DNA of 25,953 nt from a virus. Below, piece by piece: positions 22,003 through 25,953 of this stretch (positions are counted from its first letter, which is position 1; each line of letters opens with the position of its first letter). The notes under the pieces were generated by a model. The model made no database searches. It was not told where the DNA came from and worked only from the letters and a program-made list of their open reading frames with translations. Both the position numbers and the translations under genes were made by a program. The stretch lies in IMG/VR virus record IMGVR_UViG_3300045780_000007, positions 1 to 25,953 of that record, one strand, 5' to 3'.

Positions 22003-22218
22003 TTATAAAGCATCTGAATTCGCTTTAGCTTTTACGCATCTAGCACACGTAACAGCCTCCCATCGGTTGGTCCACAAAGCCTTCTTGAGATTGATGCGCC
22101 GTGGAGTCTTTGCGCACCACGGGGATACTCCCCCCGTAGATGAGATTAGCTTCGCCATATGCACAATCTTGACACTCGGCAGCGCGCCGATAGCGTTGAG
22201 AATGTCGGCAGCGTTCAT
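22003..22218 (-). CDS. Small Cys-motif protein
   Basis: 71 residues from the ATG at 22218, which overlaps the TGA of the dps gene (ATGA). MNAADILNAIGALPSVKIVHMAKL, then SPWCAKTPRRINLKKALWTN and WEAVTCARCVKAK: a Cys, then 'W..VTC..C', the arrangement of short phage zinc-binding proteins ('H......P.C........w..VtC..C...'). Basic overall. Likely co-translated with dps; role unknown. Confidence 0.6.
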   Translation of the reverse strand: MNAADILNAIGALPSVKIVHMAKLISSTGGVSPWCAKTPRRINLKKALWTNRWEAVTCARCVKAKANSDAL

Positions 22219-22721
22219 CGCGTGGCCTTGAAGAGAAACCACGCGCGCCGCTCCGCTTCGTCAATCCACACCTCAATCATCGCGGTTGAGGCGTAGTCGT
22301 CCGCTAGGGCACAGACTGTATGGGCGCTGCGCAGTTGGGTGATGAGAGTCCTGTTGTCGGTCAGAAGCTCCTTGAGCATCTCCTCGGGCGCCGGGCCGGG
22401 CTCGTCTGAGTCCTGAATCCGCTGCAAACGGGCAATCTGGCCGATGGACTTGATCGTGGTCCCGCCGATCTTCCGCACCCGCTCCGCAATGTCGTCGGTG
22501 ATGGCGTAGATTTGCGTGGCTTGCTCGTCCAGCATCAAGTGCCAGTCGCGAAAGTGCGGGCCGGTCATGTGCCAGTGGAAGTTCTTTGTCTTCATGTACA
22601 AAGCGAAGCAGTCAGCTAGCAGCGCGTTCAGCGATTCAGAGAGTTTATCAACGTTCGCAGGACTGAAACCGTCTGCAACGTCTGAGCCTTGATAATCTCC
22701 GGTGGAGAATGGGAATTCCAT
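22215..22721 (-). CDS. Dps-family ferritin-like DNA-protection protein
   Basis: 168 residues from the ATG at 22721 (GAGGTG 6 nt upstream); a longer frame would run back into the terminator hairpin. Dps forms 12-mers that oxidise iron with peroxide and can bind DNA. The ferroxidase residues keep the exact E. coli Dps spacing: H49, H61, D65, D76, E80 within NFHWHMTGPHFRDWHLMLDEQ and the following helix, ending AERVRKIGG. The C-terminal helix (TAMIEVWIDEAERRAWFLFK) is the usual Dps ending. The N-terminal 20 residues are short and not strongly basic. It heads the packaging operon, an unusual place for dps, which suggests phage cargo or a protective role for DNA during infection. Confidence 0.85.
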   Translation of the reverse strand: MEFPFSTGDYQGSDVADGFSPANVDKLSESLNALLADCFALYMKTKNFHWHMTGPHFRDWHLMLDEQATQIYAITDDIAERVRKIGGTTIKSIGQIARLQRIQDSDEPGPAPEEMLKELLTDNRTLITQLRSAHTVCALADDYASTAMIEVWIDEAERRAWFLFKATR

Positions 22722-22772
22722 GGTGTTCACCTCGGGAAGATGATAAGCCTTTTGGGTCCTGATGCCCAACAG

Positions 22773-22800
22773 AAAAGCCCCGGCTGGTTGGCTCGGGGCT
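22773..22800 (-). terminator. Intrinsic terminator upstream of dps
   Basis: Minus strand AGCCCCG-(11 nt)-CGGGGCT followed by TTTTCT. It ends either an upstream minus transcript or, if the dps promoter is further upstream, acts as an attenuator, comparable in position to the hairpins of leaders A and B. GGCTTATCA, also found in the leader B hairpin loop, lies between it and the dps start. Confidence 0.65.
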
Positions 22801-22968
22801 CTCTGGTGGATCACTTCTGTCTGCGGTGGATAGGTGTGGGGGTTTGGTTACGCTTGCTGAGGGCGAGGACCAGATGAAGGGAGTTGCGCCACTTCTCCCC
22901 CACGCTTGTAATTCTACCACCAGATGTTGTGCAGGAGAGAACTTTATAACGCAACCGAGAAAAATAAT

Positions 22969-23647: not shown

Positions 23648-24043
23648 ATGAACACGAAAGGGTTACCCGGCCAGCTTGCCGTGGCCCTCTTTCGCGCACA
23701 GAAACGCAGCATGGCGGCCAAACGGTATCGCGCTCGCAAGTTTACGCGCAGCGCCTACGATGTGAAGAACTGGAGTCTCGGCGAGGTTTGCCGCATTCTT
23801 TCGGCAATGACCGCGCTTAAATCAGGACTCCCATGGGGATGGAAGCGTGATCCAAAGACGCCAGGTTATGAGTGGGTGCTTTACGTTGAATTGCCCACGG
23901 GTCAATGCTCGTTCCACTCACGGGATAGGCTTTCGGGTTCTGATTTTGCTGGCAAGTGGGATGGCCAAGGGATGAGTGCGCCGCGGATATGCGCGTTTTG
24001 TGATTCAGTTTGGGAACCAGTTTATAAAGGGGAATCGAAGTGA
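23648..24043 (+). CDS. Hypothetical phage protein with LPTGQxSFHS motif
   Basis: 131 residues. A very basic N-terminal third (FRAQKRSMAAKRYRARKFTRSAYDVKNW), then WVLYVELPTGQCSFHSRDRL, FAGKWDGQGMSAPRICAFCDSV. 'YVeLPTGQvSFHS..R..G.dy.G.WDG....s..RI' is a motif I recognise from phage proteins of unknown function; it is probably a small beta domain. ATG has no clear SD, and the stop overlaps the GTG of the antirepressor (GTGA). The basic N-terminus might bind nucleic acid. Confidence 0.6.
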   Translation: MNTKGLPGQLAVALFRAQKRSMAAKRYRARKFTRSAYDVKNWSLGEVCRILSAMTALKSGLPWGWKRDPKTPGYEWVLYVELPTGQCSFHSRDRLSGSDFAGKWDGQGMSAPRICAFCDSVWEPVYKGESK

Positions 24044-24729
24044 ACGATCTTGCATTGAACATCAGGACCATGAGCAGCCGGGAGATTGCCGAACTGCTTG
24101 AGTCACGTCACGACAGCGTGAAACGCACCATCGAACGCCTTGCAGCAAATGGAGTTATCGGTGATCCACCAATGGTGGAATACCTCGACTCGCTCAATCG
24201 GCCAGCTCACGAGTACCGACTCGACAAGCGGAGCAGCCTCATCATAGTTGCTCAGTTGAGTCCTGAATTCACCGCGCGCGTGGTGGACCGCTGGCAGCAG
24301 CTCGAAGCGGAATTGCAGAAGCCAGCGCTTCCATCGACCTACCTGGACGCCCTCAAAGAGCTTGTGGCGACAGTGGAGGCTAAACAGAAACTCGAAGCGG
24401 AGAATGGAGTCCTGCGGCCCAAGGCTTTGATCGTGGACCGCATCAACGACGCTGAAGGGCTTCATACCATGGCGGAAGCCGCCAAGATCCTCGGCACCGG
24501 CAGGACTCGTCTGTTTCAGTTCCTTCGTCAGCAGCACATCTTCGATTGCCACAACATGCCACTCCAGCAGTACATCCCCAACCGGTTCGTAGTCAAAGAG
24601 CGGCCGTATATGCGGCGAGATGAACGCAGTGTCTACGCCCAGGTGTACCTTACCGGGCGCGGGATAACGTGGCTGACTCCGAAGGTTGCCGGTTTGGGTC
24701 CTGATGGCCAAGGGGAGTTCTTCGAATGA
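24040..24729 (+). CDS. Phage antirepressor, Rha-like N-terminus and KilAC C-terminus
   Basis: 229 residues, GTG overlapping the TGA before it. N-terminal part: MSSREIAELLESRHDSVKRTIERL, VEYLDSLNRPAHEYRLDKRSSLIIVAQLSPEFTARVVDRWQQLE (read in parts), the Rha/phage-regulator domain that ends with the 'R.V.rW..LE' helix. A coiled segment (ELVATVEAKQKLEAENGVLRPKAL) links to the C-terminal KilAC/ANT domain: GLHTMAEAAKILGTGRTRLFQFLRQ, NRFVVKERPYMRRDE, QVYLTGRGITWL. Such proteins inactivate prophage repressors or alter early gene expression. Lies in the same operon as the DpdA-like gene and upstream of the repressor. Confidence 0.85.
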   Translation: MNDLALNIRTMSSREIAELLESRHDSVKRTIERLAANGVIGDPPMVEYLDSLNRPAHEYRLDKRSSLIIVAQLSPEFTARVVDRWQQLEAELQKPALPSTYLDALKELVATVEAKQKLEAENGVLRPKALIVDRINDAEGLHTMAEAAKILGTGRTRLFQFLRQQHIFDCHNMPLQQYIPNRFVVKERPYMRRDERSVYAQVYLTGRGITWLTPKVAGLGPDGQGEFFE

Positions 24730-25361
24730 TAGCAATGCTCGACACTAGCGAGGATGTGGACGTTTGCGCGGCTGAGTTAGGGTGTCCTGTCGAGCAGTTG
24801 TTTACGCCGCTTACTCGGTTCTCACCCCAACATCTTGAAGCACACTTCGGTATCGACAATGGGTGCTTCAAGCGATTTAACGAGGCCGCATTCCTCGCGC
24901 TATTGGAAAGAGAGAGACCGCGCCGTGACCTGTGCCGATTCGTTTGCTGCCCCGATGTGGTCGCGAGTGCCATCAGAACTTTGGAGATATTCGATATTTA
25001 CCGTCATAAACTTCAAGGGTGGCCGGTCGCTCTTGTGGCTCAGGACGGGCAAGAGTCATTGCCGATTCCATGGCATCAGATTCAAGCGATCTTCATCGGC
25101 GGTTCTACGCAATGGAAAGATGGTCCATATGCAGCGGCCATTGTGCGTTCGGCAAAGATTCTCGGGAAATGGGTCCATGTCGGGCGGATCAACACGCCAG
25201 GACGCTTTGAGAAGTTTGAGGCGCTAGGTGCGGATTCTATGGATGGAAGTGGACTTGCGCGTTTTTCGTGGATGCGAGAGCGGATATGGAAGGCTCAGAA
25301 CAATCCAACACTGTTTGACCAATCAGAAAATCAGGACACATCGAAAGATTGCTTCGAGTAA
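24726..25361 (+). CDS. TGT-superfamily protein, DpdA-like (putative 7-deazaguanine DNA modification)
   Basis: 211 residues, ATG overlapping the antirepressor stop (ATGA). It lines up with tRNA-guanine transglycosylase landmarks in order: IDNGCFKRF (cf. DSGGF), CCPDVVASAIRTLEIF (cf. PDV), VALVAQDGQE (cf. VQGG), AIFIGGSTQWK (cf. IGG), WVHVGRINTPGRFEKFEALGADSMDG (cf. GVGtPe.l..., then the nucleophile-bearing D.FD). The TGT fold is used by phage DpdA enzymes that exchange guanine in DNA for a 7-deazaguanine. At 211 aa it is shorter than bacterial TGT (about 375) and lacks the classical zinc ligands. No queuosine/preQ0 synthesis gene is visible, so the base would have to come from the host. The exact substrate is inference. 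Confidence 0.6.
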   Translation: MIAMLDTSEDVDVCAAELGCPVEQLFTPLTRFSPQHLEAHFGIDNGCFKRFNEAAFLALLERERPRRDLCRFVCCPDVVASAIRTLEIFDIYRHKLQGWPVALVAQDGQESLPIPWHQIQAIFIGGSTQWKDGPYAAAIVRSAKILGKWVHVGRINTPGRFEKFEALGADSMDGSGLARFSWMRERIWKAQNNPTLFDQSENQDTSKDCFE

Positions 25362-25407: not shown

Positions 25408-25626
25408 ATGAGGAAATACGCAAAAGGCGATGTGATGCTGGTCCTTCGCGGGATGATTGCAAAGTCAAGCCAGAGGAAAGTGGCAGCAGGACTCGGATAC
25501 ACTGCTCAGTACATTTCTCAAGTCCTGTTGGGCAAGAAAGCGCTGACGGCCGATATGGCTCTAAGGATTGGTTTCATTCAACTGCCCGATGCTTACGTGC
25601 GGGCGCCGAAAGGAAAGGTGAAGTAG
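25408..25626 (+). CDS. Cro/CI-type (XRE) helix-turn-helix regulator
   Basis: 72 residues. AKSSQRKVAAGLGYTAQYISQVLLGKKAL is a clear XRE helix-turn-helix (S.r.vA..LG.....Is..L.Gk), followed by TADMALRIGFIQLPDAYVR. Length fits a Cro-like or minimal repressor without a cleavage domain. Its own promoter carries an inverted repeat over the -10, suggesting autoregulation, and the ATG is at or beside the transcript start. Could be a Cro-like regulator or a DNA-adenine/cytosine-style control protein; the antirepressor nearby favours lysogeny control. Confidence 0.8.
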   Translation: MRKYAKGDVMLVLRGMIAKSSQRKVAAGLGYTAQYISQVLLGKKALTADMALRIGFIQLPDAYVRAPKGKVK

Positions 25627-25953
25627 TGGAGACTCTGCGAATCACCAAAGCAGATTTGAATGAGCGCAATGAATACACGCGCTCACGCGACCTTGAATTT
25701 GAAGGTCACATCGAAGTTGAGGCATCACTCGGGCGGGTAGTTGTGCTCGGCTTCATTCACGCCAGCGGCCGCTTGGGCATCAAGGCTGGCTCGGGCATCA
25801 AGGCTGGCTTGGGCATCGAGGCTGGCTGGGGCATCGAGGCTGGCTTGGGCATCGAGGCTGGCTTGGGCATCGAGGCTGGCTGGGGCATCGAGGCTGGCGA
25901 GGGCATCGAGGCTGGCTTGGGCATCGAGGCTGGCGAGGGCATCGAGGCTGGCG
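25626..25953 (+). CDS. Hexapeptide-repeat (GIEAGx) protein, C-terminus beyond the window
   Basis: GTG at 25626 overlaps the TAG of the repressor gene (TAGTG) with GAAAGG upstream. About 109 codons are visible. The N-terminal 50 residues (METLRITKADLNERNEYTRS..., DLEFEGHIEVEASLGRVVVL) read as short strands, then the protein becomes a run of six-residue units GI[EK]AG[LWSE]. At least ten 18-bp units are visible and the array continues past the edge. Six-residue repeats with a regular Ile and Gly are typical of solenoid beta-helices, so an elongated rod is the likely fold. Role unknown; DNA mimicry (Glu-rich faces, as in some repeat anti-restriction proteins) is a speculation. Confidence 0.6.
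   Translation, partial: METLRITKADLNERNEYTRSRDLEFEGHIEVEASLGRVVVLGFIHASGRLGIKAGSGIKAGLGIEAGWGIEAGLGIEAGLGIEAGWGIEAGEGIEAGLGIEAGEGIEAG
25776..25953 (+). repeat. 18-bp tandem repeat array
   Basis: Units GGCATC[AG]AGGCTGGC plus a variable codon start at 25776, 25794, 25812, 25830, 25848, 25866, 25884, 25902, 25920 and 25938. Only the sixth codon (Ser/Leu/Trp/Glu) and one Lys/Glu position vary. There are no unique spacers, so this is not a CRISPR. Confidence 0.9.

Follow-up and report, generated by a model that had tools for sequence, protein, structure and literature searches.

Phage DNA 7-deazaguanine transglycosylases of the DpdA type, described from phages such as 9g, CAjan, and Rosebush, are the closest characterized homologues of the gene reported here (PMC6884629). 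Some phages carry a DpdA as a singleton: dADG is present in the DNA of Salmonella phage 7-11 and Pantoea phage MED16, and the DNA of Mycobacterium phage Orion, which carries a different singleton DpdA, is unmodified (PMC6884629). That certain actinophage proteins are annotated as “DpdA-like” was already known; what is new here is the definition of a compact family that includes them, along with its plug-in pathway genes, a QueF-L-like neighbor, and a clamp-like C-terminal tail.

The gene lies in IMG/VR virus record IMGVR_UViG_3300045780_000007, a 26-kb stretch (25,953 nt) that was analyzed at full length and is referred to here as the window. The window encodes tail sheath, tail tube, portal, protease, and terminase proteins on the strand opposite to the gene of interest, indicating a contractile-tailed phage. 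The window covers part of a genome, with the gene close to one end. The product, which we call mini-DpdA, is most likely a DNA 7-deazaguanine transglycosylase and a compact variant of DpdA. Its reading frame starts with ATG and overlaps by 4 bp (ATGA) with the stop codon of the gene directly upstream. The initial annotation had placed it in a “regulator operon,” a fair label given the overlapping Phage_pRha/KilAC gene upstream and a weak, sub-threshold HTH_3 match downstream. The features of the locus, in window coordinates, are as follows.

24040..24729, + strand: antirepressor with Phage_pRha and KilAC domains (Pfam), directly upstream of mini-DpdA
24710..24717, + strand: AAGGGGAG, likely ribosome-binding site of mini-DpdA, from the sequence
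24726..25361, + strand: mini-DpdA, compact DpdA-type transglycosylase, 211 aa (phrog_15826 match, TIM-barrel model, phage DpdA profile match, family context)
24855..24857, + strand: D44 of DNG-F, aligned with the Asp of DSGAF/DSGGF in DpdA/TGT
24954..24956, + strand: D77 of PDVV, which pairs with an invariant Asp in the DpdA motif ASVLD
25041..25043, + strand: Q106 of AQDG, which pairs with the base-recognition motif VQGG in TGT
25098..25103, + strand: G125-G126 of FIGGS, which pair with the IGG motif in both TGT and DpdA
25242..25244, + strand: D173 of DSMDG, aligned with the TGT nucleophile Asp (mFDCV) and with DpdA YSVDSS
25302..25316, + strand: NPTLF, C-terminal short motif resembling a beta-clamp-binding motif (family C-terminal enrichment; low-confidence tail of the model)
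25408..25626, + strand: small HTH_3-like protein, 72 aa, downstream of mini-DpdA (weak HTH_3 match just below cutoff)

Elsewhere in this phage genome, a ferritin/Dps-like protein is encoded at positions 22215-22814 on the minus strand (PF00210, E 1.5e-24), and a plus-strand reading frame with repeated GIEAG pentapeptides (25629-25953) runs off the end of the contig.

The window protein matched phrog_15826 (E 6.5e-36), a family listed as having unknown function, and matched no Pfam or NCBIfam model. All 46 aligned members matched phrog_15826, and one of them also touched phrog_887 (queuine tRNA-ribosyltransferase). Using tblastn, we found relatives in 24 of 50,697 phage records, mostly actinophages in which the protein is annotated as “DpdA-like tRNA-guanine transglycosylase,” together with Synechococcus, Escherichia, Vibrio, and Erythrobacter phages; relatives are encoded in at least 562 viral stretches and at least 69 bacterial or archaeal genome loci. 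Comparison of the window with its closest relative (locus L005) revealed purifying selection on the gene (dN 0.14 versus dS 1.9). In L005, the gene directly upstream of the homologue (559-1008) encodes an SSB-like protein with the tail ISDDDIPF.

The initial annotation had recognized a TGT/DpdA-like order of motifs, and the order is as claimed: I-DNGCF (D44), C-PDVV (D77), VAQDG (Q106), FIGGS (G125-G126), H151-VGRINT, and ADSMDG (D173). These motifs are not due to chance, since they are conserved across 46 homologues, in which P76, D77, Q106, F123, G125, G126, K131, H151, and D173 are invariant and D44, N45, D107, G108, G153, R154, N156, R160, and G174 are at least 90% conserved (the D44 position is Glu in locus L009). 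When the family profile was aligned with nine canonical phage DpdAs using hhalign, the probability was 94.2% (E 1.1e-7); D44 was paired with DSGAF, D77 with the Asp of ASVLD, and IGG with IGG, and an extended alignment also paired D173 with the Asp of YSVDSS. The DpdA representatives were drawn from phage records, since searching viral contigs for close relatives of canonical DpdA gave only three loci. The match to ten bacterial TGTs was weak (probability 4%, P 0.01) and paired Q106, GG, and D173 with the Gln, GG, and nucleophile Asp of TGT, to which an extended form added D44. H151, invariant in the family, is not paired by profile alignment with the conserved His196 of 9g-type DpdA, a residue that is absent from DpdA2 (PMC6884629). 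The TGT Pfam model (PF01702) matched neither the window protein nor any of the 46 members, and the CxCxxC...H zinc site, which is present in the bacterial TGT alignment, is absent from the window protein, where D173 is followed by 38 residues with one Cys near the end. Without that site, the protein classes as a compact enzyme of the DpdA type and not as a TGT. TGT proper was rejected for the window protein on both counts.

An AlphaFold2 model of the window protein, made with the window and locus sequences as the input set, was a TIM barrel (pLDDT 95, pTM 0.88) whose last ~15 residues were of low confidence; this model and the profile alignments to DpdA and TGT uphold the TGT/DpdA-like barrel that had been proposed. 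In the model, strands 41-43, 70-74, 101-105, and 121-124 are followed at their C-terminal ends by active-site residues, so that D44, D77, Q106, and G125-G126 are predicted to be placed as expected for one pocket. The initial annotation had suggested comparing a predicted structure with TGT. That comparison returned the TIM barrel, with TGTs prominent among the PDB matches, but the fold did not single out TGT: the top Foldseek matches in the PDB were TIM barrels of other kinds, the many TGT entries beginning at rank 14 (E 2e-4), and a PDB sequence search, by protein and by profile, gave no meaningful match. In a viral model library, queuine tRNA-ribosyltransferases of Mycobacterium phage Bella96 and Arthrobacter phage Sonali were ranks 5 and 6. 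Because the top matches were diverse TIM barrels, the fold by itself is not specific for TGT, and the identification rests on profile alignment and gene context.

Gene neighborhood is the strongest independent evidence for a 7-deazaguanine role. An adjacent, same-strand 7-deazaguanine gene was present in 26 of 53 members dereplicated at 65% identity (VUT/YhhQ-type transporter, 10; QueF-L-like, 7; QueD, 5; QueE, 4; QueC, 3), and because the HMMs for these neighbors were partly seeded from the neighbors themselves, the linkage claim rests on independent Pfam scans of 30 whole viral records, in which all three QueC and all six PTPS (QueD) matches above cutoff were within ~260 bp of mini-DpdA. Pfam also confirmed the example neighbors QueC, PTPS, and Vut_1; QueE was assigned from weaker radical-SAM matches and similarity to annotated phage QueE. 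On the family tree, the minimum numbers of label changes were 6 for VUT, 7 for QueF-L, 4 for QueD, 4 for QueE, and 3 for QueC. The recurrent class of neighbor is Que genes and not regulators. A Vut_1 gene is immediately upstream of mini-DpdA in Phegasus (Mycobacterium smegmatis) and ReqiPine5 (Rhodococcus equi) and ~330 bp upstream in Aoka, and the family PF02592/COG1738 is known from experiments to transport preQ0/preQ1 (PMC11130926). The preQ0 pathway is absent from mycobacteria (PMC6884629), so an importer beside mini-DpdA makes sense. The window member itself falls within a supported 11-member clade, in which seven members have 7-deazaguanine neighbors. The earlier proposal that the gene belongs to a 7-deazaguanine system is borne out by these family-wide neighborhoods. 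As a separate observation, in Caballeronia/Paraburkholderia genomes (L143:10580-12415 and similar) a gene for a 612-aa protein with a PAPS_reduct domain comes after the mini-DpdA copy, and PAPS-reductase genes are also near mini-DpdA in ReqiPine5 and Erythrobacter phage R6L.

One recurrent neighbor, an unannotated protein of 80 to 93 aa without a meaningful Pfam match, occurs at L009:10615-10860 and ten other loci, with C13, P14, D20, Y22, Q51, E52, G70, and H72 invariant. Its profile matched the archaeosine synthase QueF-Like 5jyx (E 5.5e-4), and the top 13 PDB matches of its model (pLDDT 93.5) were QueF-L, with a TM score of 0.89 and 1.9 Å for 5k0p/5jyx; it shows the T-fold with the conserved Cys, Asp, and Glu of QueF-L. 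From profile and model, we identified it as a phage QueF-L (archaeosine synthase-like) family. Its position beside mini-DpdA leads us to predict archaeosine-type DNA in those phages.

Within the window fragment, we detected no QueC, QueD, QueE, FolE, VUT, QueF-L, or canonical DpdA gene. The base would therefore be supplied by the host or by phage genes beyond the sequenced part, and without a preQ0 gene in the window, the exact modification is not predictable. TGT was absent from 9 of 11 actinomycete genomes carrying a member, and among those nine, eight had no QueC match and one had only a marginal one.

Distant members have C-terminal endings such as QADLF, QPDLF, QLALL, QFALF, QLTLF, QLDLL, QPQLF, and NPTLF, and the spacing between barrel and motif varies. 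A strict clamp-like pattern was found in 15 of 53 members versus 21 of 678 control ORFs (P 2e-9) and a looser pattern in 32 of 53 versus 53 of 678 (P 2e-19); these motifs are short, and both P values are inflated by the relatedness of the members. None of ten bacterial TGTs had such a tail, 9g-type canonical DpdAs end in QDLFDE, QGLFV, and QRLF, and the window tail, NPTLF, is without the Gln of the QxxLF/QLxLF-type motif. The mini-DpdA gene is located between sliding clamp and DNA polymerase genes in SHIN8, phiG7, and R29Z, records that cover Seuratvirus and a Vibrio phage (the gene at the clamp position in the Vibrio phage is annotated as hypothetical). The SHIN8 (L002:11932-12524) and phiG7 (L017:2932-3524) copies, at this position, each consist of two overlapping frames, unlike the single-frame copy of Vibrio R29Z (L016). 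The tails, together with placement beside clamp and polymerase, point to DNA rather than tRNA as the substrate, a conclusion that is well supported but that we infer from context. Judging from the motif, the tail may recruit the enzyme to replicating DNA by putative clamp binding, a route to DNA of which we found no discussion in the literature searched.

The initial annotation had also suggested that the enzyme might relate to the word CAGGACY. The word is indeed enriched in the window (60 sites versus 7.5 expected, 8-fold), where it occurs on both strands and inside genes (positions 1-25953), and CAGGAC is the top 6-mer in a Markov test. The proposed link did not hold up, however: among 141 loci compared, enrichment was limited to the window, and the closest relatives had no sites in 4.9 kb (L005), 0.27x (L006), and 0.5x (L007). 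CAGGACY was therefore rejected as a word tied to mini-DpdA and, as far as tested, is unrelated to it.

We propose, with a probability of roughly 0.7, that mini-DpdA is a compact DpdA-type base exchanger that likely acts on newly replicated phage DNA via a clamp-binding tail and likely helps that DNA to escape host nucleases. Homology would make D173 the nucleophile and give the acid/base role to D44. Cleavage of the glycosidic bond at selected guanines would be followed by attachment of a 7-deazaguanine, either preQ0 or a derivative of it, with D77, Q106, and G125-G126 holding the incoming base. Newly replicated phage DNA, reached via the C-terminal tail, is the likely substrate, and in the window phage the base may be supplied by queuosine synthesis in the host or by phage genes beyond the contig. 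Escape from host nucleases is the likely benefit, and such protection is probable by analogy with work on canonical DpdA phages (PMC6884629). Literature searches returned no measured activity for any compact-family enzyme. Also weighing against this reading are the weak match to bacterial TGT, the missing zinc site, the other TIM barrels that lead the PDB matches, the absence of a preQ0 gene or transporter from the window, the unmodified DNA of Orion, the actinomycete genomes that lack TGT and mostly QueC, and the shortness of the tail motifs in a set of related members.

A TGT-like order of active-site residues, and Que genes that serve tRNA queuosine as well, could also fit a transglycosylase that modifies tRNA and tunes host or phage translation. 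We regard this as improbable: the zinc/tRNA-binding region is absent, there is no tRNA gene in the window, bacterial TGTs do not have clamp-like tails, the closest characterized homologues are DNA enzymes (PMC6884629), and the gene is grouped with clamp and polymerase. Marginally easier to entertain, but still unlikely, is a DpdA scaffold that handles a base other than a preQ0-type one, or one modified further by a neighboring QueF-L- or PAPS-reductase-like enzyme. Actinomycete hosts without TGT and QueC, the PAPS_reduct neighbors, and the QueF-L neighbors are consistent with such a base, whereas the direct association of many members with QueC, QueD, QueE, and the preQ0 transporter family argues against it.

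Least probable is a noncatalytic or unrelated TIM barrel, such as a purine sensor that works with the antirepressor operon. The operon in the window, an HTH gene directly upstream in Sonali, and the diversity of TIM barrels among the top Foldseek matches would suit a sensor, but the catalytic set is kept in 46 sequences and the recurrent neighbors are Que genes, not regulators. The compact DpdA-type exchanger thus remains our preferred reading. We extend it tentatively, at somewhat less than even odds, to a distinct, replication-coupled compact class in which docking through a flexible tail onto the sliding clamp of host or phage would let the enzyme exchange guanines in freshly synthesized DNA, each phage would supply only the step that its host lacks (importer, QueC, QueD, QueE, or QueF-L), and a salvaged or different base would be used in queuosine-less actinomycetes.

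This assignment gives a large phage family of “unknown function” a specific role in DNA base modification that can be tested. Which base a given phage may carry is predicted by its plug-in neighbors (archaeosine-like with QueF-L, salvaged preQ0 with a transporter), and the clamp-like tail, also present in 9g-type DpdA, offers a possible answer to how and when such enzymes reach DNA. For DNA labeling, small transglycosylases that act on DNA and take modified guanines would be useful as well.

Compared with known systems, mini-DpdA shares with bacterial TGT (PF01702) the TIM barrel and the D, Q, GG, D order of landmarks but has no Pfam match, no zinc site, and half the length. The annotated “DpdA-like” proteins of mycobacteriophages Phegasus and Majeke and arthrobacter phages Sonali and Aoka belong to phrog_15826, with 35 to 42% identity and the same active site. 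Phegasus and Aoka have a preQ0-transporter-like gene nearby, whereas the window member has no transporter, belongs to a lineage apart from all four, and has antirepressor and HTH neighbors. Like the singleton DpdAs of phages 7-11, MED16, and Orion, it has no biosynthesis cluster; those phages were absent from the BLAST matches of compact-family members. Phage DpdA of the 9g/CAjan/Rosebush type (PMC6884629) resembles mini-DpdA in profile homology (94%), catalytic Asps, IGG loop, preQ0-gene association, and, in several cases, a QxLF-like tail. However, it is ~300 aa long rather than ~200 aa, canonical DpdAs were not retrieved by BLAST with three mini-DpdA family members, and the pathway genes of mini-DpdA are single or paired, unlike those of canonical phage DpdA. 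The two types coexist in SHIN8, Sonali, and R29Z.
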